A stretch of 64,000 nt of DNA from Telopea speciosissima (Eukaryota; Streptophyta; Magnoliopsida; Proteales; Proteaceae), in assembly GCF_018873765.1 (NCBI RefSeq), contig NC_057921.1:65461557-65525556 (forward strand). The letters run 5' to 3'. Below, piece by piece: positions 881-62,906 of this stretch (positions are counted from its first letter, which is position 1; every line of letters begins with the position of its first letter). The notes below the pieces were generated by a model. The model saw only the letters and a list, made by a program, of their open reading frames with translations. It was not told the DNA's origin and searched no databases. Position numbers and translations under genes: made by a program.

Positions 881-924
881 TGTGCCACACACATCCCTAT
901 GCGTGCCGAGATGTGTGTGGCACA
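881..924. repeat. Hairpin, 14-bp perfect arms
   Basis: Arms 881-894 (TGTGCCACACACAT) and 911-924 are exact reverse complements with a 16-base loop. An AAATGACC word lies just outside at 860-867, as in other hairpins of this window. Confidence 0.75.
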
Positions 925-1185
925 GCTCAACCGCTGGATGCCCCCTGACAGCACCTTGGGCGCACGCCTCCCTGGAGACGAGCTAAATTCCCCCTCCTCC
1001 CTCTTCCCTTGCATATCATATCCTAATATGGGGCAACTCATGGACCATTGTGATGTCTTACTACCGAACTATATAAATGTGATACTTAAGCTCTTTAGAG
1101 TAGAACCCTCTCTTAAGGAAAAGACAAAACCTTAAATGTGATACTTAGCTCTTAAGGAGAACCTTAGTTTTTCATGTTGGACAAA

Positions 1186-1339
1186 GTTTTCCTTCACCCA
1201 TAGAGGACGGTTCACCCCACCATCCTAGGGTTCACATACCCCTCCTAAGATTTTTGTATGTTCCAAAATACCCTTTTGATATCCAGTCCCGCCCTCTCCT
1301 GCGCCTTGGTGAATCACCGTACGTGGGTGGAGGGAAACT
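1186..1339. repeat. Foldback repeat with imperfect 30-bp arms
   Basis: The arm near 1186-1217 (GTTTTCCTTCACCCATAG...) pairs with 1308-1339 (...GGGTGGAGGGAAAC), with several mismatches and a small gap. The spacer is about 90 bases. Probably an old foldback or MITE-like insertion. Confidence 0.55.
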
Positions 1340-1479
1340 CGATCATTCCATGGATACTCAAGATCATAGATTGGTATTAACTAACCTCAGAGGAAAATTT
1401 TTTCCTACGACACTAGATACCCATGCAGCCATGCTCTCTCACAATCTCTCCTCTCTTTGACATCCCTTAACCCGCGTTG

Positions 1480-1638
1480 GGCTCCTTTGTAGCGTAACAT
1501 AGTGTGCAGTGCACATCCAACGGTCCTGTGTGCTCGGACACGCAGCCCAACACCCTGCTTGTGTGTTGGACTGCGTGCCCGAACACACAGAGCCGTCAGA
1601 TGATGCACTATACACTGTGTCGCGCTACAGAGGACCCG
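1480..1638. repeat. Foldback repeat, about 75-bp arms
   Basis: The left arm (1480-1554) and right arm (1561-1638) are imperfect reverse complements along their whole length. For example, AACGGTCCTGTGTGCTCGG on the left pairs with CCCGAACACACAGAGCCGT on the right. The loop is only a few bases. The insert is GC-rich compared with its flanks. Confidence 0.8.
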
Positions 1639-2141
1639 AATCCCCGTTAACTCTCTCTTAATTTCTTCTACCTTTACTGATGAAACTGATCGATGCCCGC
1701 CCATTGGTGTGGCATAGGAAACTTTTTTTCACTCTAGCGTTGTGAGAAACTTCCTCTTTAATTAATAAGCATGTCTTGCTTTTAGCTATCAGCAAACCAA
1801 CCCCAAATCATCCCCTCATCTAGGAAAAAGTTGAGAGTGATTTTCATATAAATTTCTGGACAGATTTCTAATCACCACCCACTTGATTTAATTATAATAT
1901 CTGTAAGGGATAGACAGAAACCCTAAAGCCAAAACACCTCAAAACTTAGTTAAGTCAACAAGTTAGATTACTTTATTATTTATAATCGTCCATGTCATTT
2001 TCTAATAAACACTCTTTAATTTTAGGGTTTTCTATTACATTAATTGATGACATTTTCTCCAAACCAAAGAAATGGGATCGGCCTCCATCGATTCTGATTT
2101 GAATATAATCGGAATCAGAACTCCGAAATAAAATTTAAAAG

Positions 2142-2167
2142 ATATATATATATATATATATATATAT
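2142..2167. repeat. (AT)13 microsatellite
   Basis: Uninterrupted AT dinucleotide run. Confidence 0.95.
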
Positions 2168-2894
2168 GTAAGTCTTAAGAATTTTTTATTAAAGTTTTAA
2201 AGACTATGTCAAAAGGTAAGTTTCATTGATTTTCTACAATTTTATTGATTAAAAGAAAAAAATAACCAAAAACTAAGATTTGACTGCATTCATGGTTGAT
2301 TCAAAAGAAAAGTTTAGATTTTGAACAATAATCAAAATCGACTGACTTCAATTTTGTCAATTCTAATTCAATGCTATAAACCATGCTCCAAATCGTCCAT
2401 GTTGTAATAGTATAGAACATATGGTGATGAGCATTTAAACTTCAAATTGGGGTCAAATCATTCCCTACTAATCCGATCATCATATCAGAATCAACCAAAA
2501 TCGATCTAAAAATCTTAGAATCGATTCCACATATATGAAAACCCAACATTTTGATCCCAAAAATCCTATCAACCACTTTGAAACATCTAGAATTGGAATC
2601 AATCGTGGCTGATTCTGTTTCAAATCATTTGATTCGACTAATTTGATTCCAAAATTTGAAACAATGGACTTATGAGAGCATGGATTTTGTTAAGAATATC
2701 AAAATGGAACCGGAACCAAAACCGCCTGTTGATGATTGTTCCGAACTGGATCACAAAGAAATGACTCAATTTTAATTTCATAGAATCTCTTCTCGATTCA
2801 GTTTTGATTGGTAGTTGTAAAATCGACAATTCTAAATCAAATGGAAACTAGTAAAACCAGACCAAAATAAACTAAATTTTCTAAAGATTGATCC

Positions 2895-2910
2895 TGTGTG
2901 TGTGTGTGTG
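2895..2910. repeat. (TG)8 microsatellite followed by poly-T
   Basis: A TG run passing directly into a T-rich tract to about 2933. Confidence 0.9.
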
Positions 2911-3869
2911 TTTTTTTTTTCTTTTTTTTTTTGTTGCTTTTTTCGGTAGTAGATCCTGTGTTTAATAGGTTTGTATTTCTAAGATGATTTTTTCTTATGT
3001 TAGAATGTATAGTAAGAAAATCCCCAATATACATTGAGATGATAAGCTTAGTTATTCTAAACTCAAATTAGGTGTAAAAATAATCAAATTAAAATGTATA
3101 AAAATGAAACAAAATGTGAACCCGTATCACATACTCCATGAATCAAAATTAAACACATTATAAATCGGAATTGCAACAGTTTTCCAAAATCAGCACTACA
3201 AATCACATATAAAACAAATGCAAATCATATAACAAAAACTAGATAAAATGGATAAAATTGAATCAAATACAAAACGATTTTTACTTTGACTGACTCTATC
3301 CGATTTTGAGTTGCACCTTATCAAAATGTAAATCGAATCAAAATCGGACGGAATATTCGGAGTCTTCTTCAAGACGAGGCACCCACACAACTGTCACGCA
3401 CATTTTTTATAAAATCTCCAACTTGGAAGCCCAAAAAGTAAAATGTAAATTTAAGAAATGAAATAAGACGAAAATTAAAACCGAAAAAAAAAAAACTTTT
3501 TAGAAGTATCTGCGTTGACCTTCTCGTTGATATACACTTTACAAAGGGGAAGGAGATGGTTCGCCGATGCCTACGAATCTTGATTATCAACAATCATACA
3601 CACGAGATTACGAGAATCACAGGATATACTACTCCTAATTTTTATTTATCTTAATTAGAATAAGACCGGCAGCATGGAATCACTCTTCTGCTGCTCTTGG
3701 CACTCTCTTGGTAATGGCGATGTTTTAAAAAACAAGTGTTGTGGGTGGAGAATCTCCCCCACTCTCTCTCTCTCTATCTCTTTCTCTCTAATTTTGGCGG
3801 ACAAAAAGGAAAAAATGGAAAGTTGGTAAATCTTTAGCATCCAATGTCGGGCGCGGCTTTTACGGCGGT

Positions 3870-5273
3870 TCAGCTGCCACCAGCAGCGGTGGTGGCATTA
3901 TGAGAGAACCAAGAAGGCGGAAAAGTTGCCGGCAGTTGGTCGTCAGAGCAGTCATCCAAGGCGGCGCCGTTGGTTGGTCCATCGAGTTCACCAAGACCCT
4001 CGAAGAAATCATCTCCCATCATCATATCGGGAATAAGAAGATCGTCGTCTTCATCGTTATCCACAACTATTTCTTCCTCTTCATCCTCTCTGCACTCCTG
4101 CTTGGGCTGTTGCAGAAGCTCGTCTTCCATGGCGGCAGTTGGAGTCTTTGGAGAGAGACCCGTAGTCGAAGCAGGGGAAGAACAAGATGGTTTGTTGGTG
4201 GGTGTTCCGGGTTCGTCTGCTGGGGTGGAACCCTGAGGATTGGGGAACTTGTTCCGAGTACTACCGGCGAGGGAATTACGGTGGGTGGGGACTGGGTGGT
4301 TGTGCTCCGCCGTGTAGGTGATGATGATGATTCCTGGATCTAAGCGGCTTCGCTCCACTTGTTTCCTTGCTAAACACCCTTTTGAGCTGCTACACCTGTA
4401 GTAACCCCTGTTATTGAGACAAGAATCAAACGAACAAGATTGATTTAATTGGGAGACAAAGATAAAAAGACAGGCAAAATAGATTGAACAATGGAGATAA
4501 AGAAAAAAAACCCAATTGAGATCTACCTCGGATAAGGTGACCCTTTGATGGGTTTCTGGCCATATTTACGCCAAGCCCACATATCCGAAGAAATGCCCTC
4601 GGCCGGTACTTGGCAAACAACCCTCTTCTGTTGATTCTTCCTGTAAAAAGAAAGAAAAATTGAAAGTTATTACTATGAGGGAAAAGGAGAAGGAAATTTG
4701 AGGAAATGGGCATCTGGGTAGGAATCTATCTTTTTTTCTTTTTATTGAGAAAGAATCTAAGGAATAACGAACAACAAAACAGAGAACAACGAACCTTCTT
4801 TTCGATCGAGGGGTCTGAGAATGATAAGTAGTAGTTGTCGCAGCGGCAGCAGTAGTAGGCCCTGTTAGACACTGGGGAGATTGCTTTTGTTGCTGCTGCT
4901 GCTGCTGTGGTTTCTGTTTCTGTTGCTGTTGCTGCTGGTGTTGGTCTGTGAATCCTACATGGGTGAGAAGAGAAGTGGGGTTGCTCTGTGGGGAAAGAGC
5001 TTCGACTTTGGAGAAGAATGGTTTGTAGAGTGCCTCTAATTCCTCAAGAGGAGTTAAGGTTTCAAGGAGATCGGGGAAACAGAGGTCTTGGTGGTCCAGA
5101 CCCAAAAGAGGAGGAGAAGGAGGAGGAAAACAAGAGAAGTAGCAAGAAGGCTCTTCCATGGAAGTTGTGGTGAGGGCGACGGTAGCGGTGGTGGTGGTGG
5201 TGGAGGTGGGGGTGGAGGTGGCGGTGGTGCAGCAGCCTCTTACCACCGCCTGCAGATCCCAATCGTCTCCCAT
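3870..5273 (-). CDS. WRKY22: WRKY22-like transcription factor (group IIe)
   Basis: Exons complement(3870..4407, 4527..4640, 4795..5273); 376 aa. All junctions are GT-AG. The N-terminus [14 protein letters not shown] matches the start of WRKY22/27; an upstream in-frame Met at 5285 is possible, but 5273 fits the family better. A Gln-rich tract lies in exon 1, followed by the basic SKRRKNQQKR nuclear signal. WRKYGQK is at residues 183-189, and the zinc ligands are C203, C209, H233 and H235 (C-X5-C-X23-H-X-H). The intron inside the domain, after PYPR, is at the position common in WRKY genes. [17 protein letters not shown] and an acidic C-terminal region with [10 protein letters not shown] follow, both WRKY22-like. 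The family binds W-boxes and acts downstream of MAP kinases in pattern-triggered immunity (established for Arabidopsis). Nothing looks broken. Confidence 0.96.
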
Positions 5274-5514
5274 GTCGAGAAACATAAGGGACTGTTATCT
5301 CTTCCTTGAAACTTAGGCAGTCTCTCTCAGTTCCAGCGATGATTGTTACTCCCAATAGCCCTGTGCTTGACTCTGCTCTGCCGTTGCTGCTGCTGCTTCC
5401 CCCCTTTGGGTATGCCGGTATGGGTATAGAAGAGAGAGAGAAACAAAGGACAGCGCTGACTTTTGAAGATAGAGAGCAATACAGAGATGGGAAAAACTAG
5501 CCCTGGTTTTATTA

Positions 5515-5522
5515 TTTATATA
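5515..5522 (-). promoter_or_regulatory. Probable TATA box of the WRKY22-like gene
   Basis: TATATAAA on the minus strand, about 240 bases upstream of the chosen start codon. It would put transcription start near 5485-5490, giving a leader of about 210 bases. Confidence 0.6.
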
Positions 5523-5809: not shown

Positions 5810-5819
5810 CATGGCACCG

Positions 5820-7851
5820 TCGTGGTTACAGTCTCTGCGTGTCTGAGTCGATGCTGAGTTGGTAAAATTGGAGAGGATGTTTCTTACGTGTTACATTAAT
5901 ATTTTTAGGTTTACACAAATTGGAGAGGATGTTTTTACATTAATATTTTTAGGTTTACACTGACATTCTCAGTCCTCTCTATGATCAATTATGATAAGAT
6001 AAACAGTTTTGTCAAATAATAATACTTGAGATGTAACGGAGAAGAGAATACAACAAAGGCAATGTGGCACACACAGTACACATGGCCTTTGTTATACCGC
6101 AGGTTATACACACCCTACAATAGAGGATTTTTATTCATCCACTTATGGTTAAGATGTGAGAGAGTGTAGGAAAACATCCCATAATTGTTGTGTTAATATA
6201 AAGTGCAAAACAAAAGAGGCTTTTAAACATATACAATATTTAGAAGAAAATTTTTTCTTGTAAAATATCATTTATATGAAATTTTTAACAACGATACAAA
6301 CAAAACCATTTAAAGAAAATTATCCCAACAGTGGCAGTGTCATGCACTCTTTCACAGTCTTCCCTTCTTATGCTCCCCTATCGACAAACTGTCTGATGCA
6401 TTCCTCATGCCCCCATTGGCTTGGCACGGGGACTCTATTCACCTCAAACTATCCTCTTATCTTATGCTCTCTTGTTGCCCCAATTATTTAAAGCAAAGTG
6501 GAAAAAAAAATCTTATGATAAGAGTGAAGATTTCTTCTCGTGCCCTCTCATAAACCACATAACCTACACTAATATCCTCTCTCCTTTCACGAAATATGAG
6601 TCTTTTTAACATAGATTGAATTCGTCTCCTGCCATGGATTTAGATATTGTATCTACTAGTTTGGACGATACGATAGCCATCGATCAATATTGATATCGGT
6701 CAGATACCATGAACTGAAACCTTGCTCCCAACCATGGATGAAGGAATAGGAATCGGATAGGTCGGATTGGCCGATTCATTTCCATATCGATAGAGATCGA
6801 TATTGATTCCTAATTGATCGTGTATCAATGTATCAGTATTGACCAAGAGTAAAAAGGTATTAAAAAAAAATTGATTTTTAAAGAAAAACATTAGCAAATC
6901 CATCTAGTCTCCGAATACCAATTGTTGAACATGGTTTAAGGAATCGGTATAAGATATTTGTGTCAATATCGGTATAAGTTGATACTGATTCTTGATCGAT
7001 CCCAAATTGGTGAACCAAGGGTAAAAAAGTAATAAAATCTTTTTTTTTTAAATGAAAAATAGAGGTAAAAGTGACTTGATCTGGGTTGGTTTGGATCGAT
7101 ATCAAATTGATCTGAGATCGACACCGATCTCGATACTGATATGTAAATCCCTGTTACTGAATCCTTGCTCCAATGCATGGTTCTAAGTATTGGTATCAGA
7201 TCGATCTGTACTGGTTTTACACCTTACTGATAATGTATCGGTGGCACGATATGGACAAAGGATAAAATGGTAAAAAAACCCATTTTAAAGGAAAATTAGG
7301 ATTAAATTTGTTTGATTCTATCGATCCTTACTGATAACATATCGGTTTTTAGATTGATTGATACCCGATCAGATACCGTGCAGTAAAACTATACTCCAAT
7401 GCTTTCACCTTGTGATTTTCCAATTCCTTTAAAAACAGGAATTTTTTTTTTTTTAGGGTGAGGAGTGTGGGGAAGAAAGCTGCTGCAGTCTGCAGACACC
7501 GGTCAGTGCGCCTCAACTGTCGTTATCCCGAATACGGGCGCGTGTCCGGTGTAAACGGAGTTTCTAGACTTTCTAGTTTAGGGAAGGCAAGGGAAGGGTC
7601 CGTTGAAGGAGTGTTTTGACTGAGATTCATTTATTATAGTGTCCTTAGGGTGCGGGAATTAAGGACCACCGACTCACCGAGAGACCACAGGAGCACATCG
7701 CCTCAACTTGCAACTTAAATTAAAAGAGTCCTGAGATGGAAGAGATGCCAAATAGTGACCTTCTCGACGGAACGAGTGCGTACGATAAGGTCCCTGTACA
7801 GCTGTAATGCGCACACCCTCTAGGGTTGCCTTGGTGGTTGTTGAGTGGGAT
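5820..7851. other. Gene-free stretch; degenerate TATCGATC-type repeat at about 6640-7400
   Basis: No protein-like frame. A 33-base segment around ACAAATTGGAGAGGATGTTT is repeated near 5860-5960. From about 6640 to 7400 there are three diverged units of roughly 230 bases that share CTTGCTCCAA-CATGG, GGTATAAG and GATATCGATC words. The same vocabulary returns at 9215-9310 and 55390-55570, so this is a dispersed repeat family. 7440-7850 shows nothing recognisable. Confidence 0.5.
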
Positions 7852-8074
7852 TTGGATTCTCTGTGGTCTAGGATTGAACGGCTATCTTACTTTGCGTTAA
7901 ATTCATAGGTCATCATGTGGATTTTATGTCGATCCAATTGCTGATAGATGATGGTCTGATTTGAATTTTAAATTAAGCTCATCTACCAACTATTGGATTA
8001 GCATAAAATCCATATGGAGGCTTGGGAGTTAAACGCGGTAGGCCGCTTAATCCCAAGCCACAGAGGATCCAAGT
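7852..8074. repeat. Foldback repeat with GGAT(C/T)CTCTGTGG ends
   Basis: The left edge TTTGGATTCTCTGTGG pairs with the right edge CCACAGAGGATCCAAG. Inner arms also pair imperfectly (GGATTTTATG near 7919 with CATAAAATCC near 8002). It belongs to the group of hairpins with GGATCCTCT-like edges described in the findings. Confidence 0.7.
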
Positions 8075-9383
8075 CGTGTTGTGTGGATGGCATGTGTGTT
8101 GTTTTTTTTTAGGAGAGGCTAGGGGTGTGTCTAATGGGACTTGATCTAATGTATGAGTTGGAATACCACGCAATCCTAGGAGACCTATAGTAGAGTGAAA
8201 GCTATCTTCAGTTTAAAAATTGATTATTTTTAGTGTTTAGTCACTTCCGACTGATTCCAATTAATTTGGAATTGAAATTGACTAAGATTGATCCCATTAG
8301 TGCAGCAATTGTAAAAACCTTGAGAGTATCGTGCTCAATATGCCTCCAATCCAACGGCTGAGAATTGGATAAGATCACTTGATTTTTTTAAATGGTTAAT
8401 GTTGTTACCACATAAGATGTAGGATTTTAAAGAATCGATCTTTCTTTAGTTCTTGAATCTCTCTTTGATTGATCAATATATAATCGGATCCTCATTTTTA
8501 ATGGAATTGAAACAATCTCTGGGTTTATCAAAAGACACTTTCAATTGGCGGGGATCCCTTGAACGAGATTAGAGATCTTGTGAATGGATCCAAATTTTAA
8601 AATATATTCTGAAACCTTATTCATCTCTCTTTCTAGTTTTTGAATGCAAACCAAACACAACCTAAGACTGTGTTTGGTATGCATTCTGGGTCGATTTCGC
8701 ATTCTCCATCGTTAAAAACAAGATTAACCAAATAAAATATTGATATATATATATATATATATTATTTATTATTTTTTTTTCTAGTAAGAAAATATTGATA
8801 TAGTTACAACCAAAAAACGTGAGATTATAATATCTCATTTGTGAGCCGCGCCATTCATTCTTAAATTATCAAAAAGAAAAAGATAAAAAAGGGTCATAAT
8901 TTCGAGTTGCTGCACTAGACAAGAGTCAACGCAACAGGATGATGAAGACCATCTAATCTGTAGAATCAGAATCAGGAACACGATCTCATTGATCTGTAGG
9001 ACTGCAGCCAAGCAAAGGAGGTGTGTCTCCTCACGTATCAAATGCTTATGACTATGAGATTTTATATTATCTATATCTATTTTATGGTTTCAATTATTAA
9101 AAATAAATAGAAAGGGAACACCAAAAAAAAAAAAAAAACAACCCACGATCCCCACGAGAAAAGAACCACCATCAAGTTATGGGTAGAAGGAGCAAAGGAA
9201 ATGATAGGGATCATTCATCATCGTGGATTTAGGTATTGGTATCATATTGGATGATAGGTATCGTCATATCGGTATTGACACGGCATCGATATGTATCAGT
9301 CGATATTCATTGTTCTTTTTTTCTTATTTTTTATCTTGGAAAAATATTATGGGAAAAAGGTGGAAGGATGAAGTAAGGAAGAG
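8075..9383. other. Intergenic DNA, no gene seen
   Basis: AT-rich, no convincing coding frame. It contains an (AT)10 run at 8743-8762 and a piece of the dispersed TATCGATC-type repeat near 9215-9310. Confidence 0.5.
8743..8762. repeat. (AT)10 microsatellite
   Basis: Uninterrupted AT run. Confidence 0.9.
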
Positions 9384-9750: not shown

Positions 9751-9768
9751 ATTAGGAAAAAGTGGTCA

Positions 9769-10872
9769 TGCATCTATGCAATATATGTCTCCTTACAATT
9801 TCTTCTTTCTCCCTTCTCATTATTAATATGCGTCTCTTATTGACGAACTCATACCCTTGCTCTTTATCTTCCTCTCGAACGTATATGATGCCAAGATAAT
9901 TGAGTTCTATACCATCTCTCTCCAAAATGTTATGACACAAAGATTTGCTATTTTTTGAAATGTCGATCACATGACAATTATTTTACCATGTGGACAACTG
10001 ATGTTTTCATCCCTATCATTGGATGAATATTAGAGAACATAGTTTAGATCTACCATGTCCTACATATGTCCCAACACGTGTACACATACTATATTTATGT
10101 GTAATTCTCCCAATTCTGAGCAGGAATAGACAATCTAGGTGAAAGAAAGAAAAAAAACTCCCAAGAAAAATGAATAGCTAAAATGTATCTTGTGATCTTC
10201 ACAACATCACAAGCAAATGTGGCTTAGGTCTTCTTACAAATTTTTTTTTTCTTTTAAATTTATTAAAAAAGAGGCAATTTCCTAGATCTACAAGATAAGA
10301 AAATTTTTTACAAAACAAGTAAATTTACTATAAGTATAAAACAAAGTTAACTTTTACTTGTTTTGTAATTAATTTTGTTCTCTTGTAGAATTAAGTAATT
10401 TCTTGAAAAAATGTAAATTTGGTCACAAGACTTGGTGGTAGTCTTAGTAGTGGACATGTAGAGAGTAAAAGAAACCGTGTTATAGACACCAATGACTGGA
10501 CTTGGACTTTGTCTCAACTCCTTCCACACCAGCGGCGTGCTAAACTGTTTCCTTTTGTAATTGTTAATGATCCTATGTAGCTTGGACATTCATAAGTCTT
10601 TCCATGCTTAGCTTAGAGAATGGTAGTAATGACTTGTCTTTCTCTGCTTCATTGGTCAAATATTTTACACCTACTTATAAGGCTTTTCCTTCTAGTCGTT
10701 TTAGGCCGGTCACAAGGACTAGCCTTTTTGGCTGGTCCCTATTTCTAATTACCTTGTGGGTGGATAGAGACTGGGAGTTGGGACCCACCATTGGATGGCC
10801 CCACATGAGAAATTGTACATGGCCTAGATGATCTTGACCGTCTGTTTTTAACAGGCATGGAGGAGGGGATCA
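9769..10872. other. Intergenic DNA, no gene seen
   Basis: No protein-like frame, tRNA or element with clear ends was recognised. Confidence 0.45.
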
Positions 10873-10932
10873 GGATCCTCGCCAATACATTGGAGAGCCC
10901 AATAAGCCCACTTATTGGATAGGATCCAAATT
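10873..10932. repeat. Small hairpin with GGATCC edges
   Basis: GGATCCTCGCCAATA at the left pairs with TATTGGATAGGATCC at the right, around a loop of about 30 bases. It has the same edge motif as the larger foldbacks. Confidence 0.6.
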
Positions 10933-11283
10933 AGAATTCATCTTTAAAAATACTCGTTAGGGAAAATACACTCTAGTATAAGCCTTCATATAATTAAAGC
11001 TCTGATCACATCCGATATAAGATTAATTTAACGTGGAAACCGAATAAATACATGTTCTTTTTCTTCCACCAATACTCCTCTAAACACTCTAATTGACAAT
11101 ATAGAGAAGTATTGATGGAAGAAAAAAGACATGTATACGTCGTCACAAAACAGCATTTAAAGTCTTCATGTATGGGGAGCTGATTCAGGATCAAAACTAA
11201 CCTTTTTTGCTCTAAGTCTCTATACATGAGATATTTGTCATGTTTCCCAAGTAAGGATCTGGTCCTTTTTCTCTCTCATTATA

Positions 11284-11460
11284 GGATTCTGATCCTCTAC
11301 GATCAGGCAGGTAACGGCTATTGTGCTGTCTACATCCAAAAAGAGGCGAAATGATCACTCTACCCATTGCCTGAGCATCCTGCTCAAGTAGGATCCACAC
11401 CCCTATCTGGGTGTAGGCAGCACAATGACCATTACCTACCCGACCGTTATGGATCCAAAT
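11284..11460. repeat. Foldback repeat with GATCCTCT edge
   Basis: The left arm (GATCAGGCAGGTAACGGC, TTGTGCTGTCTACATCC) pairs with the right arm (GTGTAGGCAGCACAATGACC, CTACCCGACCGTTATGGATCC). The loop side contains CGAAATGATCACTCTACCC, the AAATGATC word shared with other hairpins here. Confidence 0.75.
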
Positions 11461-11630
11461 TGCTCATTGTAGGGGAAACAAGGGTTGGTCCCTTTCCAGT
11501 CACTTTTCTTACATAGAGCTTAAGAGATGCAAGTTGATCAGATATAGTGGTAGTGCCATAATGGAAGCAAAGACTAACTCAATGGTTTCTTCTCCTCACT
11601 TCTTGATTGTTAATTTCGTCTTATTTGATT

Positions 11631-12335: not shown

Positions 12336-12505
12336 AAGATCTTACGAATCATTATCCTCTCCAATTCGTTGTTCTCTCCAATTCTTCCAATTCCTTACAT
12401 GGGGGCAGAAATGATCATCCTATCCCTTACTTGAAAACACTACCCAAGGTGAGGTCCACTCCCCCTATTAGAGGAATTGAAGAATTTAGAAGTGATAATT
12501 ATTCA
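12336..12505. repeat. Foldback repeat with TTATCCTCTCC edge
   Basis: The left side starts GATCTTACGAATCATTATCCTC and the right side ends AAGTGATAATTATTCAGATC. Arms containing CAATTCTTCCAATTCC pair with GGAATTGAAGAATT. The interior has GAAATGATCATCCTATCCC. The edge TTATCCTCTCC is shared with the hairpins at 53.8 and 54.2 kb. Confidence 0.6.
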
Positions 12506-13791
12506 GATCTTACAGGCCACCAACTTGGGAAAGAACCCTCAACTCCTCAAACGGACCAAATGAGGGTGGCCGCAGCAGTACTTTCAAAATGAAGTATGGA
12601 GAAGAAAGAGTAAAAAAAAAAATTTTGAAAGTGAGAAGCGAGGCACAGACAAGTCTAGCAGCATGTGCAGCATTTTCTCAAAAATAAAATGGGAAAAAGT
12701 AGCAAAATGCCCGTCTTTGGGCAACAAGTGCTGCTATTGTTGAACCACATGGAGGTTCCTGCCCATGTGGCCTATCTGGACCATGTGTTTGATAAATTGT
12801 TCTCTAATTAGTACATGTCAAATTCCACAATGGAAATCATTTCATATGATTTATCATGTAGTATACTTTTCTCCCGGTCAAAACCAAAGTCGATTCCAAT
12901 AACAAACCGATACAATCTGAAATCAAACTTTTGTTATTGGTTTGATTTTGAATTTACTATTCCAGACCCAAACAACTAAACCTGAATGAAAATTGGTTCG
13001 AACTGATCGATCGACACCCCTAGGTCACACCAACTCTCTGGAATCGAACTGAAATTGAAAAGAATAACCAATTGAGATCCTTATCTTATCGTCATCAAAA
13101 CTTGGGGTTTTTTTTTTTTTTGGGTGGGATATTTATTATCTGAACAGGTGCCCCATTTTGGAGGTAATTTCCCTTCACCCATGGTGAACAAGAAACTCCT
13201 TCACCAATGTGTGTAGACTGTAGATGCCTTGAGATCGGCATCAAGAACAACTAGGGGCGTAATATCAACTTCAACACTTGGTACAGTGAGGGGAGTAATA
13301 ATGACCTTAGATGGGCTGTGCCATAAGTTCCATTACAATCTCACTGGGTCATGGGGTTCCAAATTACAGCTGAAGCCGGTCCCATTTGAGAATCGCTTTT
13401 TGCCCCTTGAGGCTGTTTGATACTTGATTAATAAAATTGGTTCATTGGAGCTTTGCAACCAAGAAAATAAAAAATTCAATGAAACTTTCCAACATGTACC
13501 GCACAAAAACTCAAATATGCTTTCTAGTTTCTACAAATATTCAACCAATACTACAAGGAGAAGATCAGCCAGAGCTGGATCAACCTTCACTGCCGATGAA
13601 TTGACTTCCCTTTCTAACACTGATTGGACAAACCAGAAGGGAATAAAACACTAGTAACACTACCCTGAATACTGGTATTCTCCTCCTATCAAAATTTACA
13701 ACAAAATGATAATTCCCGACGAATGCAAAGTTGTTAGACTATGCATCCTTAGTTCTAACTTATATCTTTGACAGACTTATTGATGGGCTTG
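12506..13791. other. 3' flank of the Tic22-like gene; intergenic
   Basis: No gene seen. Near 12880-13022 the minus strand begins TAGGGGTGTCGATCGATC, which resembles the terminal sequence of a common plant hAT-type repeat. The last few hundred bases before 13792 probably include the 3' UTR of the Tic22-like gene. Confidence 0.45.
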
Positions 13792-23146: not shown

Positions 23147-23831
23147 GGCTAATCTCTGGGGTTTGGGGCCTTTGGGCACAGGACTACAGGAGGGAGTTTT
23201 GATTCACCTTTTGTATTCAATCTTAAACTCAAGTTGTTTCCCCCACCCACACCGTCCTCTGGTCGCGTGGTTCCTGCACCTGGGCGGGGGTAGGGTGGTC
23301 ATTACACCCTCTTTATTATAGGCACAGGGGGAATTGGGTTGAGCAGGGCACTGGAGGGAACAAAGATCCATGCACTCATTGGCTCTGATACTGGTGCAAA
23401 CGCTACTATGCTACACACCTAGGCAGTGTGGTCTCTTGCCCATGTTTTTTTATCCGAGCACCGATTCTTGGGTTCTTGAAACTGATTTAGATTTTAGATC
23501 TGATTTGAATCAGAAACGGCCGAGATTGATTCCATCCCCGATTTCTTTTAAAACCTTGCCAGCAACCCATTTTGTTCCATACCACAAATGTCTTGTGATT
23601 TAATATTCTCATGGGAAGAAGAATGATGCTCGACCGCGTGGCCAATGAAGGGGGCGCACAAGGGCGTCCCACATGGATGGGGTTTTTTCGTATTTAACAA
23701 GGGGCAAGATTGTCAATTTGCTCCCCTCTATGTTTAGACATAAACCCTATGTGACCAGACTAACATTCTTTTTCCCTCTCTATAGAGTTGGAATCATATC
23801 AAACAAAAAAAGGGCGAATGTTATGTGTGTC
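23147..23831. other. Upstream flank of the Tic22-like gene
   Basis: 5' UTR and promoter region of the Tic22-like gene on the minus strand. 23255-23325 carries a piece of the GC-rich hairpin family (GGGTAGGGTGGTCATTACACC). No other gene is seen. Confidence 0.5.
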
Positions 23832-24140
23832 GCAGCATAGGCTGCGCCCAAGCACATGGGTAGCCTGGTAGGGGGCTAGGGTGGTCATTGCGCCCACCTC
23901 ATGTGTCCAATTTAGATCCTCTATTGCCGAGCTGCCCAGCAGGACAGTGATGTCTAGACACGGCGAGGCGTGCAATGACCGCCTTACCACTTCCCAAGCC
24001 CCTTGCCCGAGTGGGGGTAAGGCAGTCATTGCGCGCCTCACCATGTCTGGGCAGCACGGTCCTGCAGGACAGCTCGGCAGTAGACGATCTGAATCTCCCA
24101 TGTGCCTGGGCACAGCTTGCGCTGCGGTACAAGAACAGCG
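23832..24140. repeat. Foldback repeat, about 310 bp
   Basis: The outer arms CGCAGCATAGGCTGCGCCCA and CTGGGCACAGCTTGCGCTGCG pair, as do the inner arms (TTGCCGAGCTGCCCAGCAGG with CCTGCAGGACAGCTCGGCAG). The centre lies near 24000. The left arm has about 45 bases not matched on the right, including GGTGGTCATTGCGCCC. GC-rich against AT-rich flanks. Confidence 0.8.
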
Positions 24141-30929: not shown

Positions 30930-31076
30930 TGGGTATGCTAACGGTATACCATATGCTAGCACCTTATGTGTATATCTCTCTCTTCCCCCTTTGAAGGGTA
31001 AGGGAGTCATTTCAAAGGGGGGAATAAAGAGATAGACACATCGGATGCTAACATCCGGTATGCTAGCCCTCATCCT
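30930..31076. repeat. Foldback repeat, GCTAGCA / TCTATCTCTCTC type
   Basis: The left arm (GGGTATGCTAACGGTATACC, then ATGTGTATATCTCTCTC) pairs with the right arm (GAGATAGACACATCGGATGC, then GGTATGCTAGCCC). The loop side contains GGGAGTCATTTCAAAGGGG. It shares words with the hairpins at 55205 and 62088. Confidence 0.75.
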
Positions 31077-53263: not shown

Positions 53264-53823
53264 GAGATACCTGTTTTTTCTTCCTGATGTACAGGTCAGT
53301 TTTGCCTCTTCATTTGGTGGAATAGTAAGTTCTTACATAACAGTTTAGTCATTTATCTTTCAATATACCGCTATTTCTTACATGAATAATAAGGATATAG
53401 TGCATGGACAGTCTTTTGGGCGACCTCTTTCTCTCTCCTACTTTTCTCCCCTGCCTCTTAAAAAAATTATTCTCATTAACACTGCGTTTGTTTAGAGAAG
53501 AATCGGGTTTCAGAATGCATTCTAGTCCCGAATCTATTCCTAAAATGCATATCAAACAAAACCTAAAACTTGATAGTTACCCAACATTCATTAGCAAGAG
53601 CTTCATTTCAACAATGCCGCTTGTCTGGAATCTCACAGCATCAATCTTGGTTGTGTTTGTTATACATTCTTGGAATGCATTCTAGATCAATTTTGCATTC
53701 TCGGATGATAAAAACAACCTAAAATGTATACTAACACACAGCTTTGATTCACGCAAGAATGAATGAGGACAAGGGTGACCAAAATCATGTCCATCTCTTT
53801 ATGGAATAACTCCCGATTTTTTT
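53264..53823. other. 3' flank of ERDJ2
   Basis: Probable ERDJ2 3' UTR and intergenic DNA. A GGAATGCATTCTAG-like word occurs near 53510 and 53670, part of a weak inverted repeat. No gene seen. Confidence 0.5.
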
Positions 53824-54000
53824 TCCTCTCCTGTTCGCTGCCCGGACAGGACCGTGCTGTCCCCTCACATGGGGGCGCAAAATGACGACTTAACCTTCCC
53901 CGGGCAGTGTGTTGGGGTAGGGGGTTAGGTTGTCATTTCACACCCCCATCTCAGGGGACAGCACGGTCCTGTCCGGGCAGCGGATAGGAGAGGATAACGA
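53824..54000. repeat. Foldback repeat 1 of a four-hairpin cluster
   Basis: Arms of about 70 bases, nearly identical: left CGCTGCCCGGACAGGACCGT then GCTGTCCCC, right GGGGACAGCACGGTCCTGTC then CGGGCAGCG. Loop near 53895-53928, with AAATGACGACTTAACC on the left side and GGTTGTCATTTC on the right. Edge CCTCTCC / GGAGAGGATAACGATTC. Confidence 0.88.
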
Positions 54001-54219
54001 TTCAATGACTCCCTACTTCCAACACCTGCTCTGCCAGTTAGTGCCTAGTTGTACCCCTTACAAGTGAAACTCCTGAAAGCAGTATCAAGTAGACATAACC
54101 CCACCCCTATGCATGGAGATTTATTCCGATTACCTAACGTCTCTCATTGAAAGGACTTACTGGCGCCAAACCAACCTTTGTACTCCCTCTCTTTTTTCTG
54201 GTGGTGGTGGGTGGCAATT

Positions 54220-54366
54220 TTTATCCTCTCCTGTTACAGCACGGTGCTGTAATGCATCGTGCGGTGGCTGCAGAGGCCATGTGGGGCCTACTGTGCCACA
54301 TGGCTTCTGTAGCACCGCATGATGCGTTACAGTACCGTGCTGTAACAAGAGAGGATAACGATTCGA
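54220..54366. repeat. Foldback repeat 2 of the cluster
   Basis: Arms of about 65 bases: left TTATCCTCTCCTGTTACAGC then ACGGTGCTGTAATGC, right GCGTTACAGTACCGTGCTGT then AACAAGAGAGGATAACG. Within each arm TTACAGCAC-GGTGCTGTAA is itself a small palindrome. The loop is about 10 bases. Confidence 0.88.
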
Positions 54367-54875
54367 TGGGTGGGTGGGGGGGGAGTGTTGGGCCATTTGG
54401 TGTGGGAGTGGAGGAGTTTTGCGGCGTCGGCATTGGGTGTCTAGGTTCTTTCCTGAAGTTCAATTTTAGTTCAACGAAAAATCAATTATAAAAAACATAT
54501 TAGAAGCAAAAGAAAATTGTATATATAATTATTTTTATTGAATATGTAATATAAAAATTGCAAAATGAAATCCATTTGAAATTTCTGAATGTTATTTTAG
54601 GGGAAAAAATGTATGGGAAAGGGTGTTTTGAGCCTTTGAGTATGGTGTTCAGTGGTGAATGCACATAAGGGTACAGAGATCACTTCATGTGAGAGAGGAT
54701 GCCAGTGTACCCTTCGTAGTCAGCTCAAGGAATCTTTTTTTCAAAAAATGTGTGTATATATAGGGATAATATGTTCTCTGTTCCTCTAGGGGTGTAGTAT
54801 TTGTTTTAAGGGAAAAAGAATTGTCCAAGTATGTAGGTGCTGAGACCAGACATAAAGGGGCAAAATGATCGCGAA

Positions 54876-55058
54876 AAAGATCCTGTGTATCCGGGCAGTC
54901 GGATTGCATGTGTAGCGCCAGACTCAAGGCATTGCACTCTGACCCCTTACCCCTACTCGAGCAAGGCGCTTGGGCAGGGATAAGGCGATCAAAGCGCACC
55001 GCTTTGAGTCTGGCGTTGCACATGCAGCCTAGCTGCCTGGATAAACAGGAGCCAGGTC
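54876..55058. repeat. Foldback repeat 3 of the cluster
   Basis: Left arm GTATCCGGGCAGTCGGATTG then AGCGCCAGACTCAAGGC; right arm CTTTGAGTCTGGCGTTGCAC then TAGCTGCCTGGATAAACAGG. AAATGATCGC lies at both outer flanks (near 54865 and 55058). Confidence 0.82.
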
Positions 55059-55204
55059 CAAATGATCGCCCCACCCTCCATGAAATGCAAAATGGCCCCA
55101 CTTGATGCTTTCCATCATAAATATTGCATTAAATTACTTTCAATTTTTTGAAAATCCTTTTTTACACTTGCATTAAATATTATATTAAAGAGAAGTAGTT
55201 TTCT

Positions 55205-55345
55205 GTTCAGGAGTGTGGTCTACGTCAGCACTCCCATGTGTCTATCTCTCTCCTCCTCAAAACAAAGGGGTAAAAGTATCTTTTCATATGGGGAGGAGAG
55301 AGAGAGACTCATGGGAGTGATGGTATAGGCCACACTCCGGATAGA
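55205..55345. repeat. Foldback repeat 4 of the cluster
   Basis: Left arm CAGGAGTGTGGTCTACGTCA then CACTCCCATGTGTCTATCTC; right arm GAGAGAGACTCATGGGAGTG then GGCCACACTCCGGATAGAG. Arms about 50 bases, loop about 35 bases. Confidence 0.85.
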
Positions 55346-56065
55346 GAACCTTCTCCCTACATTAAATAATATTTGGAGATAAGACAAGGGCATGGTTTCA
55401 AAAATCGGAATCGAATTGGTCAATTCATATCAGAATCAACATTGACCGATCCGATCAAATCCTGTGGATTCGTGTCATTTTTCGGCCAATTATGACCAAT
55501 TTGGTTGATTACGATCGATTCGAACCAAAATCAGCACTGGCCGAATCGATTACGGATTCCAAGTTTTGACACCTGGACAATAAGTAATTAAAGGAAGGGC
55601 AAGAGTTCCTGCACCAGTACGGCGACTAATGAGAGCGTACGAACGAGCATCTTGGGGGATAGGATTTTATGCCATTGGGGTGGACGGTCATTTCATCCCT
55701 TGTCATCTTTCTTTATTTATAAAAAAAAGGCAGTTATTCAGGTAACAAAAAGATACCGGCACGGATGCTCCCAAATTGACTGGGGTTGAAACCTATATCG
55801 GTATATGGATAAAACGCATTGCTCCTTAAGTCCATAAAGACGAAAAAAACTCCCAAAACCGTAAAATAATCGGAATCTATCGGAATCTGGACCACAGACC
55901 AATCTTCCTCCAGGCAAAAGCTAACGAAGGGAAGAACTGAAGAAGTAGGACTCACGGTTCAGTTCATCGCTTCATCTCCAGGACGGAAGCATCGTCAGAT
56001 TCGCAGGGTTGATTGCTCCTTCACTGAAAAGAAGTACTCGCGCATCTCTGATTTTAAACGGATAG
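55346..56065. other. Upstream region of the At3g49140-like gene
   Basis: Holds a piece of the dispersed GATCGATTCG-type repeat at about 55390-55570. The proximal 150 bases are probably the leader. No other gene seen. Confidence 0.5.
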
Positions 56066-59000
56066 ATGATGACGATGATGGATTCAGCCTTGGCAATTGG
56101 ATTCCGCTCTACCGGCGGTGGCTCTTGCTCCTCCGTCACTATAGCAAGTTCGTCCGTACTTATCTGATTCTCTCTCTCTTTCCCTCTTCTTGCTCATCAT
56201 ATTCATCTTTTTTATGCTACTCACTGTCTTCTCTAATGGATTTTCAACTCCATTTTCCGATACCATTACTTATCCGAAAACTATTGCAGATTATCGCCCC
56301 TTTTGGAGCTCCGACGATTCTACCGGAGTACACGGCGCCTTCCGTCGATTGCCTCACGCCATCAGCCTCGACGTACCATGGTTCTTCTTTTGGTTTATTT
56401 ATTTTTTATTTTTTGGTTATTAAATCACGTCTTCCAAGCACATTATTCAATGGGAGTTTTAAGTTCTACCTGTTAGGCTGTTAGCAGTCAAAATTTAAAA
56501 TTTGTTTGTGTTGTAACTGATTCTCAGGAACAGAGGTCGGAGACTTATAGATGGGTTTTCTTTCACAACGAGGAACTATCTTCTTTCCCAAAGCAGAGTT
56601 CGGGCTACAGAAGGGTACAGGAGTTCGGCTTCAGATCCCTTGGAGCATAATAGGAAGTCGCATTACCACCCACTCGAAGACATTGCGGAGTCCACATCTC
56701 AGGACGGTGGAGATACCAGACTCACTCCTGCCGAAACCACTAGAACCATAATTGAGGTACTACCCATACATCCTTTTGGTAGAAATTTGGGAGCCTTCTT
56801 AGCCTAACAATTTGTTAATAGTTATATGTCGCATTAATTATTAACCCATTTTCGACTGGAAATCTTATTACCAAGTCAATGTCTTTCACAGGTAAACACG
56901 AAAGCAACACTAATGTTTTCAGCATTGATCAATAATGAAGTTCACGAGAACATTTTCTGGCCCGAATTGCCTTATGTGACTGATGAACATGGAAGTAAGT
57001 CAGATAATTGGCATTTCTTGAAGAATACGTATGTGACTGATATGTTTATGTTTCCCTTCATACTGCATAAAGATTTGTACTCAATTTTTCGATTAAATCG
57101 ATAAATATCTGTGGCAATATCATCAGATATATACTTCAGGGTGAGCAATGATGAAGACATTATGCAGACGCTAACTTCTGAGAATAACTTTGTGGTAGAC
57201 TTTTCACTTACCCTTTGGTGGATACCTGTCACTAACATTTATTGTGGAATCCATGTTGTTCTAGTGAAAATCTTTATGCTTATTGCAGCAAGTAATAATA
57301 GGCTTAGATAATATGGAAATGCTTAGCGAGATGGACCTATCAGGACCAGCTGATATTGATTTTGGCATTGAAGAAATCACTGAAGAAGATGATGAAGATG
57401 ATGATGAAGATGAAGATGACTATGAAAAGGTGTATCATCATGTGCTTAAATTAAGGCTGCTTCTTGGCTGTTATATATGTGGGGAATATTTCAGCTGATA
57501 ACTCCAACATCTTGTTTCAAATACGTCCTTTGTTCTTCTATTTATTTATTTGTTAGCAGGATTGGGTTGCAATTCTTGAAGATGATGAAGATGAGTCAGA
57601 TTCCGATGAGACTCTTGGCGACTGGGCAAATTTGGAAACTTTACGTTCTTCTCATCCAATGTATTTTGCTAAAAAATTGGCTGAGGTAACTGATTCATTC
57701 TGATTACACTTTGATATTTTTTTCAAAAGTATAAAAGAAATTGAGTTGTGGTTTTTATTACCAAAAAAAAAAGAGTGTCCTAGTGCACGATGCTCCCACT
57801 ATTGCAGGGTCTGGGAGGGGCAAATGTATGCCGCCTTACCCTCGCTTCGCGGAGAAGCTGTTTCCATGTTTTGAACCTGCAACGTGATGGTTGCAATAAT
57901 GTAACTTAACCATTGCGTCAACGCACTGTAATAAAAAACACGCTTGTGTTTAGTATTAATTTTTTTTTTCTTTTTTTTTGTTTTGTTTACTTGATGGCTA
58001 AACAATGTCTTTCACATGGTTGGGTTAAACCTTGGCTTTTATGTTGCAGGCTGCATCATATCTTCCCATGAATGGAATAGATCAACCTCCAGCTGGTCTT
58101 GCCATCCAAGGCCTTCTTAGACCTTCCTTTGTTGAGGAGCACCCTCTCATCCAAAAGCATATGTCAGTCCATGAGCCCTGTAAAGATGACCAAAATCAGG
58201 TTGGGAAATTTTTGGAAGACAAACTGGAAGGTATTGGCATGCTTAATGGTCATCACCATGAGTCAGCCTCTTCTAAAGATGGTTCAATTTGGGCAGAGGG
58301 ACTGGATAAAGCTGAGAGCGTTAGACCTGGGACTTCATTTTACAAGCTAGAGATGATCAAGATTCAGTTGATTTTGTCACATGGACATCAGGCATGTTTT
58401 GAGCCCTTTTCTAATTTTTTTTTTTGGTGCTTCTTGACTGGGCATTGGTCAATTGCATTTATTGGCTACCTTTGACATGAAACATATTATCTTCACAGGA
58501 TGTATGGCTACCATGTGATTGAATATAGTCGTCTTGTACTTGTGGACAATTTCTTTTTCAGGATTAATCCAAATGTAAATATTACAAGGGCTTTGTCTTA
58601 GTTATATTGGCTTCCATGAGATTGTCAGGCAATTGCTTGCCAATAAAAACATTTTACATTGAGATGCAAAAATTAATAGCCATCTGTTTAAGGAAACACT
58701 CTGCCAATTTCTTTTGTCAAAGTCTCAAAGTGATATGTTTACTGTCATTTGAGTTGAGTCCCAGAACTCTGGCTGCCAGCATGAAGACATTTTTTATTTT
58801 TTTTTAAATTTTTGGAGGGGCGGGGGGGGGGGGGGGGGGGGAGGGGGATCCCAAAAGTTAGGACTGATCCAAATCTACCCCTCCCAGAGCCCTGCAAAAG
58901 TAGGATTTGCACTGGATAGTGACCGTTATAAGGAAGGTGTTCCACTGTGTCATGAGCAGATCATTGAGCTGTGGGTCCACAATGACAATCCAGTTTCTGC

Positions 59001-61238
59001 TCAACTGTTTATGTATGAACTATTTTTGTGCTTTTTGCTTGTACTTCATTGTTATTACTCTGATAAATTTATTTTTCTCCAATGCTGCTATTTGTACTTT
59101 GTGGGGCCTTTACTTGCTTTCTCTACATCTTAATCTCTTTGATGTTTGTGGACATTGTTGAGAAATGGTCTGATGCTATATGCTTCTAAAATTTTCATGC
59201 CTAAATCATGTTTTTGTTAGTATTCTTTATAAGTTTCAGGCTGATATTTCTTATCTTGCCTAGGCCATGCTTCCACTTGTGATGGATATTCTCTTTGAAA
59301 TTGCAATTAACATCTTACGATACTTTTCTACAGACTATAGTGGAAGTAAATGATTTTCGGAAAGCCAGGCCCGATGCCATTGCACATTCAGCAGCCAAAA
59401 TTATTTCTCGCTTGAAAGCTGGTGGAGAAAAGATCACACAAGCCCTAAAGTCTCTCTGTTGGAGATGCAAGGGTATTAAAGTAGAGGTACTGCAGTTGGT
59501 ATTTGTGATTGACTTCTGGATGTTATGTTGGAAGATTAATGATTATATGCACACCTGAAGTGTAATGTACTGTTTTCAAGTTTGATGCATGTATTTTTGC
59601 GAGTTACCTGTAAAAACTACTTCAAACTCTGAATAACTTCTCATTCTCTTCCTTCAATGTTGTAAGATTTTCAATGAACACAAGTGCTTTGCCTTGCATG
59701 TTTTAGCTTCTCTCTTTAAGAAGTATCTAGACCCATGTGTTGATCACTCCTTTATCCTCAGAGGGTTTGACAACATATGATGCTTCACTGCATAATATTC
59801 TGTAATGCTGTGCTTATGCTTGATTTCATGCAGGTCATGGGGCAATATTAACATTGTAACTATGCTTCTGGTTGAGCTACACTTTCACTTTGTAACCCAA
59901 TAGACATGATTAAGTATATGACGGATGACTTGAGCATTTGAATTGTTATTCTATTATTGAATTAGGCATATGTTACACAAATATCCTATTCATGTCCATG
60001 AACTTTGCTAGAATAGTAATTCGTTCTGTCTATTAGTACATGCATATACATGTATCGTGGGAGGAAACTTTATAGAGAAGTGTATTAATGTCTGCAAAAC
60101 ATTTTTTATATTAAAATATATTCAGTATCTCATCTTTAATCTGTGCATTGCCACAACTTATTACAGGAGGTAATTCTCGTGGGTGTAGATAGTCTTGGTT
60201 TTGATTTGAGGGTTTGCTCAGGAACACAAGTCCAGACCCTGCGGTTCACATTTAATACACGGGTATGTGATAATGATGTATTAGTGATTGAAATTTTCTG
60301 TCTAGAATTTAACTTATGTTTGGCTTTAAGATATGTAATCTTTTCTTCTTCTTTTTTTTTTTTTTTGGGGGGGGGGGTGAGGAGGCAAGTTGTATGGTCA
60401 TTGAATTCAGAGATTCTGAGCTTCTTGTAAAATGGTATTTTTTAATGCAGATTATGTTGCAGAATATATAAAGATATATGTGGCTATGTACCCAAGAGTT
60501 TGACGGAAATGTAGTCTAGAAACATTTATGATGACGTTATAAGAGGAAGCCTCTAGGACATGCTACAGAAATGCTGTTGAATTTTTACTGATGATCCTCC
60601 ACCTGGTAAATTGTGCCCATATGACTTATGAGATCATAAATGGAATAACACAGAGAACATGCAAAAGACGCATCTGAATTATTTCGAATTCATACCTGTG
60701 TGTGGAACGACTTGGGCCCATATCTGTGTCACATGAAACTGTATCCACGTGAGGAAATGAGACAACCCTTAAAACACTGAACTGCTATCATTGTCTCCTT
60801 TTAGAAGATCGGCTTATTGTGCCATTGATTTTGCACCGGTACCTTAAAACACTAAATATCATGGCATATTCCGAACATTAACCGAAACTGAAACCTAAAA
60901 GATTATATTGTAGTCTTTTTGGTCTTTTTGTTGTTGGGTGCTTTTGGTTCTGATTTTTTAAGTCTATTTGTGTTGTTTCCTACTTTACATTGCCGTCTTT
61001 ATTTTAATCCTTATGACCCTGGTTTATCTGAAGTATTTGAAACTTTGGAGACAGGTATTTGAAATGCTTTATGTATAATGTGAAACACCTATTGCTAAAA
61101 CTTCTGAAATTCTCTGTTAAATGAATGTGTTTGCAGGCCATTTCAGAGTATAGTGCTGAGAAGCAACTTAATGATCTACTGTTCCCGAGGGTCCACCAAA
61201 CGCAAAAATGGCAACAAGCTCACCAGAAGGAATGCTAA
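56066..61238 (+). CDS. Plastid-type protein of the At3g49140 / DUF2470 (FMN-binding split-barrel-like) family
   Basis: Exons 56066..56147, 56290..56380, 56528..56756, 56892..56994, 57127..57194, 57289..57429, 57560..57685, 58050..58391, 59334..59486, 60167..60262, 61137..61238; 510 aa. The N-terminus (MMTMMDSALAIGFRSTGG) looks like a plastid transit peptide. Conserved blocks: HYHPLEDIAE, LINNEVHENIFWPELPYVTD, an acidic EEDDEDDDEDEDD tract, DWVAILEDDEDESDSDETLG, PPAGLAIQGLLRPSFVEEH, GTSFYKLEMIKIQL, and RKARPDAIAHSAAKIISRLK with LKSLCWRCKGI near the C-terminus, which is the DUF2470-like end. Biochemical role unproven; related proteins are annotated as pyridoxamine 5'-phosphate oxidase-like. Exon 8 ends with a GC donor (CATCAG|GCATGT). 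Donors of exons 1 and 2 are weak and were chosen by phase, so the first 60 residues are the least certain part. Confidence 0.88.
57768..57932 (-). mobile_element. tRNA-derived SINE resembling the Au family, in intron 7
   Basis: On the minus strand: GCAATGGTTAAG (A box-like), GTTGCAGGTTCAAAACATGG (B box), ACAGCTTCTCCGCGAAGCGA, CCCTCCCAGACCCTGC and GTGCACTAGGACACTC, ending in a T-run. The order and the GTGCAC end match the widespread Au-like plant SINE. Confidence 0.7.
58822..58841. repeat. G20 homopolymer in intron 8
   Basis: Twenty consecutive G, near more G-rich sequence; prone to sequencing or assembly length error. Confidence 0.9.
58870..58935 (+). mobile_element. SINE 3' fragment in intron 8
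   Basis: ACCCCTCCCAGAGCCCTGCA then TTTGCACTGG matches the 3' half of the SINE at 57768-57932, opposite strand. Confidence 0.5.
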
Positions 61239-62906
61239 CATTTTTTAGATTTCTACATTTGAGTTTACTTTATTGGATGGCTTCTTGTATAAAATTGCGC
61301 CTTATAAATGAATTTAGTAGGTCAGCAACAAAACTGATTTATAGCTTATGCATTTTATGTGAAATGCAGATAGTAGAAATTGGGAATCCATTGCTTCTCC
61401 ACCTTTATGTGATGGTATCCTTATAATTTTCCTCACTAATGTGTAGTATATAAATCAATAATGAGGACACTTAGAAGGTAGTTGGAGAAAGTGATGATGA
61501 AGATAATGGCCTATATTTAAAATGTGACCATTCTTAGAAACAAATATATGGAAAACTCTTCTCCTCTCCCCCCTATAACCCAGCTGATGCCCCTATGGTT
61601 TGGGAATCTCTTCACTGTGGGTGAAGAGAAAGTGTCTCTTAAATATACAGTCTCATCTCCATGGCTACCAAGACTAATGCAAGTGACGTTGTCAAATGCC
61701 TTCTCTGGTTGAAAAAATAAAGGAAGATAAAACTTTGTTGATCGAAGAAACAAGTGCATCTAAGAAGCCCACCACCATCTCCTATTAAGTGTTCGGTGGT
61801 GTCCTCTCCATCAATATCAGTGGTTCTGATAGTTTGCGCGACATGCAGATAAAAAATTTGCACGGAGCTTCGCAATTCACATACAAAGGTTGTGCAAGAG
61901 AGTATGTCAGTATGGATCCCACAAGTCATTATATGAGTGTGAGAAAGAATCCCACAGGTAATATGCAGTTTTCTTGGGATAATTTGATGATTCCAAAAGA
62001 ATGAGTGGTCACTTTTAGAGTTTTAGTTGAGGCAAAATTTTATCTTAGGTGATTATATAAATTTTGGAGAAAAGAATGTTGCGAGACTGCATAGCCTATG
62101 CTAGCACTGGGACAGATATGTCATTTCATTGGAGGAAAGAGAGAGAATTTGGTAGATGCTAGCATATGCTACACAACCGAACAGGAAACTCAATCCCATA
62201 AATTTTTTAACAAATGCACCCCATGAAAATAATCTCATAGGGGTTCTTACCTGAAAAAAAAAAATTCTACCGAATTTTTTGTGGAAAAAATAACCCTACC
62301 TAATCACGTAGCACTTTCACTTACACACATTTTCACAACTGCCCCCATTGAAAGTATTGCTCTACCTTCATAAAAAAGCGAAAATCCAACCCAGGTTGAT
62401 GCTTGCGTGCGTAGGCTCTAGAGGCTCAAGCAGTGTCTCTCGCCCAGTTTTTATTTATTTTTCTCTTTCCTATCTCACCGTTATAGGTAATTTGGATCCT
62501 CTACTGCCAGGTGGCTGAGCGGCTTCAAACAAGCAGGGTGTAGACCCCACCCAGGCAGGGTGCTCGAGTAGTGGGTGGGGCGGTCATTTCGCCCCTGCAT
62601 TGGTGTGGTGCCATGCCACAACAACTTCGCACGCCGTGGTCGATTCTCCCAAGTCTTGCCCTAAGAATGGTAGACTACAATCTTCAACTATACGTATGGC
62701 TTGATTGATCGTTGATGCCCCCACTAGACAGCAGGACCCACACAATTCAAAAACTGAGTGGGTCCAAGGTAACATTTTCTCCTGCGATTTTTCATCTTCC
62801 CGCCATTGTTTTTGGTTTCCTCATTTCGAGTTGGTGCTTGGCGCCCTAACGAGAACACAGAAATTGTTAAAATCAAGGGTGAAGGAACAAGAAAGGGGAG
62901 AGCACC
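61239..62906. other. Intergenic DNA between the At3g49140-like gene and TRAIP
   Basis: No gene seen. A hairpin lies at 62088-62185. Around 62480-62700, TTTGGATCCTCTACTGCC and GGGCGGTCATTTCGCCCC match edge and loop words of the GC-rich hairpins, but a second arm is not obvious. Confidence 0.5.
62088..62185. repeat. Foldback repeat, GCTAGCA type
   Basis: TGCATAGCCTATGCTAGCAC pairs with GATGCTAGCATATGCTACAC. The loop has ATGTCATTTCATTGGAGG. Similar to the repeat at 30930-31076. Confidence 0.72.

Follow-up and report, generated by a model that had tools for sequence, protein, structure and literature searches.

Target duplications of 9–11 bp are the mark of MITEs derived from Mutator-type (MULE) elements, which in plants combine 9-bp duplications with long inverted arms, short copies, high copy number and conserved ends. 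Self-complementary arms are found in the Angel elements of fish as well, where they reportedly have been proposed to persist via a hairpin intermediate. Dynamic inverted repeats, in which the ends are better conserved than the remainder, characterize the Galileo elements of Drosophila, which, according to the available part of the source (PMC4168063), belong to the P superfamily and have target duplications of 7–8 bp. Template switching between inverted repeats, leading to arm homogenisation and spacer inversion, is described in the accessible portion of a yeast study (PMC8604942), and a similar argument is made for RNA stems in that of a second paper (PMC8794818); the cases treated in these portions are short repeats in yeast genes and RNA genes.

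We compared with the MULE-derived, Galileo and template-switching cases the hairpins in a 64,000-nucleotide stretch of Telopea speciosissima DNA, the whole of which is referred to below as the window. The listed features of plant MULE-derived MITEs all recur here, but the arms reach almost to the centre and the two ends have tips that differ reproducibly. Galileo is similar in its dynamic repeats and conserved ends and different in its duplication size and superfamily. Both signatures of template switching, arm homogenisation and spacer inversion, are present at the family level, but in arms of 50–90 bp, in transposons, and as a change between families or subfamilies only. Several distinct families, conventional and non-autonomous, are represented by the window hairpins. 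It is likely that in these families, mostly of Mutator type, arms are inherited within each family and were rarely rewritten one from the other in founding lineages.

Hairpin elements in the window

The initial annotation listed eleven hairpin places, seven of which proved to be inverted repeats (7894–8036, widened to 7849–8075; 11286–11460; 23910–24094; 53821–53997; 54216–54363; 54881–55050; 55207–55341), while an eighth has arms pairing at 72% (30946–31061) and three are weak. Among the weak places, that at 12336 has a paired stretch of only 27 bases, and those at 10873 and 62088 were not among the inverted repeats detected in the window. The coordinates of the elements below carry no strand.

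Family H is represented by an old MITE copy at 7849–8077 with the ends GATTTGGATTCTCTG and GACTTGGATCCTCTG, flanked by a possible 9-bp duplication with one mismatch (GTTGAGTGG at 7840–7848 and GTTGTGTGG at 8078–8086). One mismatch also separates the target duplications of the family G MITE at 11284–11462 (CTCATTATA at 11275–11283 and CTCATTGTA at 11463–11471), whereas those of the family B MITE at 12346–12504, whose arms are poorly paired, are perfect (AGATCTTAC at 12337–12345 and 12505–12513). The MITE of family D at 23910–24094 has the edge GATCCTCT, and a check of its flanks found no target duplication; around it is a wider inverted repeat (23826–24131) with arms of 35 bp, as if the D copy were nested in another element. 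Repeat family M occupies 30930–31072, with ATGCTAGC words near the ends and a ATGTGTCTATCTCT-like word.

MITEs of four further families follow. Family C lies at 53815–54004, with target duplications differing by one mismatch (ATAACTCCC at 53806–53814 and ATGACTCCC at 54005–54013), and family A at 54215–54364, where the flanks, inside a G-rich repeat, agree in 8 of 9 bases (GGTGGGTGG at 54206–54214 and GATGGGTGG at 54365–54373). Family E, at 54873–55059, has perfect target duplications (AAATGATCGC at 54863–54872 and 55060–55069), and those of family F, at 55190–55357, have one mismatch (TATATTAAA at 55181–55189 and TACATTAAA at 55358–55366).

A short weak foldback at 10867–10932 has the ends GGATCAGGATCC and AATTTGGATCC, and its flanks were checked with no target duplication found. 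The weak foldback N at 62092–62171, with arms containing TGCTAGCA and with the word GTCATTTCA, resembles M and had no second copy among the loci compared. A small hairpin at 876–929 adjoins AAAATGACC, and part of it matches locus L008 at 92% over 38 bases.

Dispersed copies in the genome

The 823-Mb genome was searched with single window hairpins of families C, D, F, E, G, M, B and H as queries, plus C2 (query from locus L027). Each search scored 40 candidates including the query's own place, and all 40 matched the query in every search; the numbers of first-look candidates from which these 40 came, given below in brackets, are not copy counts. The other copies showed identities of 86–92% for C (792), 84–91% for D (3636), 89–91% for F (2639), 81–87% for E (635), 84–90% for M (581), 80–90% for B (1544) and 89–93% for C2 (1630). 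For G they were 73–83% (101), and for H, where many matches were partial and the copies are old, 67–84% (139). The copies of A, B, C, C2, D, E and F are dispersed, many and of uniform length; G and H are the smaller or older families. The query was less similar to its own other arm, at 79% in C, 75% in F, 74% in E, 72% in M and 83% in C2; for D, B and G the own other arm was not among the matches listed. The two arms of the H query are 69% alike, a value that its matches to other copies do not clearly exceed.

All eight window hairpins used as genome queries return dispersed copies with the same arms (less clearly so for H, whose copies are old and often partial), and the ninth, A, shares its arms among the 43 copies used, which contradicts the initial annotation's single family with arms private to each copy. 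Conventional subfamilies with shared arms, which the same annotation had set against its own reading, were found in these searches. That arms differ between the listed foldbacks is true because these belong to different families, and it does not hold within a family.

Two local arrangements were also observed. At G000:C3:68928153-68956143, ten listed family A places lie ∼2.93–2.95 kb apart with one gap of 4.3 kb, which suggests a tandem array with a unit carrying an A copy. At L023:78-461, two D-type copies adjoin each other, joined by a GGATCC-rich stretch.

Superfamily assignment

Long terminal inverted repeats whose ends are conserved are present in families A, C and D, and the check for target duplications proposed in the initial annotation, run on these three, revealed duplications of 9 bp. 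In family A the duplication was perfect in 28 of 43 copies at 8 bp and equally in 28 at 9 bp, in 16 at 10 bp and in 5 at 11 bp. At least 8 of 9 bases agreed in 23 of 29 family C copies (11 perfect; the 29 include a D copy), and the duplication was present in 6 of 11 family D copies (4 perfect). Cross-copy controls for a 9-bp duplication gave 0.2% for A, 0.4% for C and 0.9% for D. Judged from these duplications, the long inverted arms and the related ends, A, C and D fit Mutator-type (MULE) MITEs. Families B, E, F and G are placed in the same type by the duplications of their single window copies, and H is probably so. A hAT origin, which predicts a duplication of 8 bp only, was rejected since family A is perfect at 9 bp as often as at 8 bp, and Stowaway or Tourist elements, with TA or 3-bp duplications, were rejected given the 9-bp duplications of A, C and D.

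Arm differences between families

Sixteen elements were assembled, of which 12 were compared pairwise (66 pairs; C3, U, B and W were left out). The two arms of one element were most alike in 65 of the 66 pairs, a result that is uninformative because unrelated hairpins give it trivially. Only in five pairs did arms align better than shuffled sequence (z above 3). Four of these were between families and concerted, with within-element against between-element arm identities of 0.95 versus 0.76 for C–D, 0.93 versus 0.71 for C–C2, 0.89 versus 0.70 for D–Q and 0.80 versus 0.65 for E–P, while the fifth, formed by two copies of E, was not concerted.

When the four arms of C and D were aligned, 22 columns showed a joint difference of both arms and 5 a difference confined to one. 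Under a null model of independently evolving arms, the mean number of joint columns was 0.5 and the maximum 4 at a per-branch divergence of 0.12 (2000 simulations), and 1.3 and 6 at a divergence of 0.2. Joint and lone columns numbered 17 and 11 for C–C2, 16 and 14 for D–Q, 12 and 15 for E–P and 6 and 14 for Q–R, against 2 and 20 in the within-family control E–E. Joint columns are trivial where arms are not homologous, so it is C–D that carries weight: its arm homology reaches a z of 5.9 between two consensus sequences, whereas the other concerted pairs involve single copies and weaker homology, with z of 3.0–4.4. Some of the 22 joint C–D columns may represent one shared shift rather than separate substitutions. 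Joint indels between C and D were dropped as evidence, as their joint gap columns stem from trimming of the ends of D; D and Q have 7 joint gap columns, in an uncertainly aligned part. The arms, and partly the loop, of related families are thus of common ancestry, yet both arms differ alike, as shown for C and D and less strongly for C and C2, D and Q, and E and P.

In the remaining 61 pairs arm alignment did not rise above a z of 3 relative to shuffled sequence, and A appears by eye to have only its edge in common with C. Both observations are what would be expected if families with unalignable arms, such as A, F and M, were independent, each having taken up new sequence between ends already present and doubled it as an inverted repeat, with no common ancestral arm being rewritten. 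The arms of C, D, C2 and Q, which are still homologous, speak against this origin. We regard independent capture as a possible but on balance doubtful source of such families; it can coexist with rare rewriting of one arm from the other.

Subfamilies, tips and loop orientation

Family A contains subfamilies that differ at matching sites in both arms. By their left arms, 9 of 43 copies are CTGCACGGTGCAG-like, against CAGCACGGTGCTG-like words in the rest. Of the nine CTGCACGGTGCAG-like copies, eight have a right arm that by eye agrees in type, and in L033 the right arm is degraded. L022 has intermediate, CAGCACGGTGCAG-like words in its two arms, and L016, L029 and L061 have them in one arm each, so the change between subfamilies may have taken more than one step.

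The unequal tips are of two recurring kinds, AATTTTT / AATCGTT in A and C and CAATTTGG / GGATTC in D and G. Relative to these tips, the loop of family A is swapped in 12 of 43 copies, normal in 21 and unclear in 10, where 6 of the 33 clear orientations (3 swapped, 3 normal) rest on the BLAST strand, the loop not being callable by script. Swapping was observed in 8 of 9 copies of the CTGCAC type and in 4 of the 34 others. One of 28 family C copies is swapped (L075), with two more having an altered left tip, as is one of 11 family D copies (L074, by eye).

These orientations bear on a further explanation of the joint arm differences, namely selection for pairing in master copies, with compensatory point mutation in place of copying. 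Joint substitutions do dominate the comparison of C and D, as this explanation would have it, but swapped loops are not producible by point mutation, D and Q have joint gaps (with the alignment uncertain in those 7 columns), and pairing has no known function here. Compensatory mutation is accordingly unlikely.

Arms within families

The initial annotation proposed that arms are renewed copy by copy, and that arm-to-arm identity within a copy should then exceed identity between copies. We placed the left arms and the reverse-complemented right arms of families A, C and D in one alignment per family and compared left with right arms within and across copies, with a permutation p. Neither C (0.799 within copies versus 0.798 between, n = 28, p 0.32), D (0.738 versus 0.736, n = 11, p 0.36) nor A (0.757 versus 0.753, n = 43, p 0.14) showed an excess, and identity of the same arm between copies was higher (0.80–0.87). 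Copies were not randomly sampled: most of the A copies were drawn by the exact edge pattern (43 used of 158 known places), and the C copies are those that matched the window copy best; that of L027 was dropped and proved to be of family C2. Families F, E, G, H, M and B are known by positions and identities only.

Recent arm copying visible as shared rare variants was likewise rejected. Rare variants (≤12%) present in both arms of a copy, against shuffled partners, numbered 2 versus 4.0 in A, 3 versus 2.4 in C and 0 versus 0.4 in D, and variants at ≤5% common to both arms were found in none of the three. With neither a within-copy excess nor an excess of shared variants, the individual copies of A, C and D do not renew their arms.

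A single family whose copies each renew their own arms once inserted is very improbable, considering these results and the same-arm copies recovered for every hairpin queried. The appeal of this reading lay in the listed foldbacks, whose arms differ yet are mostly self-complementary, and in the window copy of family A: taken alone, it has arms that agree with each other (88% complementarity over 51 bases) better than it agrees with any other compared copy (84.8% over 158 at best), an excess not seen in its family (n = 43). Arm renewal by copying thus fails for copies and survives for family founders, where joint arm differences, subfamilies and swapped loops support it.

Edge and loop words

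The edge word is, as the initial annotation supposed, commoner than chance: TTATCCTCTCC occurs 2407 times, twice as often as its reversed control (1189), and palindromic edge pairs with 80–141 bases between them occur at 158 places (15 + 143) versus 0 for the control. The loop word said to be common to the hairpins is present in C, B and G, in the variant CAATGAC in D and on the opposite strand in M and N, but absent from A, F and H. The end sequences are GAATCGTTATCCTCTCC-like, and A, B, C, D and G resemble one another in their outer 12–17 bp, a likeness presumably maintained by the need for transposase recognition. The loops of E and D are 85–92% alike over 47–54 bp. Chance recurrence of the edge and loop words deserves next to no credence: the shortness of the words and the lack of the loop word in several families speak for it, but the twofold excess, the paired edges and the E and D loops all stand against it.

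The AAATGATC at 54876 was rejected as a loop word, as AAATGATCGC flanks element E on both sides and is its target duplication. E was inserted into AAATGATCGCCCC-like sequence (54863–54872 and 55060–55069) resembling the loop words of other families, which makes a MITE-into-MITE insertion possible.

Origin of the arms

The consensus arms are near-complementary (0.875 in A and 0.894 in C including the unequal tips, and 0.94 in D over the paired part) and the copies of A, C and D have decayed independently, which points to founders with well-matched arms. Under the reading we favour, of arms inherited within families and rarely rewritten in founding lineages, each family would have spread by transposition from such a founder. 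In a lineage that subsequently acts as a master, one arm would be rewritten from the other by rare template switching or intra-element conversion that does not reach the tips, and the same kind of event may have inverted the loop relative to the unequal tips, producing the swapped copies. The new copies would then decay independently, as those of A, C and D have done.

The initial annotation knew no described family with such behaviour. As far as the mechanism goes this overstates the case, since the accessible portion of the yeast study (PMC8604942) describes homogenised arms and inverted spacers. The terms gene conversion and homogen- are absent from the available part of a MULE paper (PMC3310237). 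No report of joint arm change at the family level in MITEs was found among titles and abstract openings, with few subscription papers included, which is weak evidence of absence.

Conventional MITE families, mostly of MULE type, had been taken for a single one, and the joint arm change is a family-level pattern. A more speculative idea, rather improbable as it stands, is that new families are founded by arm replacement, in which template switching rewrites both arms of a master, the unequal tips and the loop core persist, and silencing RNAs made against the older arms miss the rewritten hairpin, allowing a burst; if true, arm turnover would be an escape from hairpin-triggered silencing. The striking claim of arm renewal in each copy is removed, and what replaces it is a testable pattern in which arms are stable within families and jointly changed between them, and loops are flipped. 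Such a pattern would record, in nature and on an evolutionary time scale, how template switching acts on inverted repeats.
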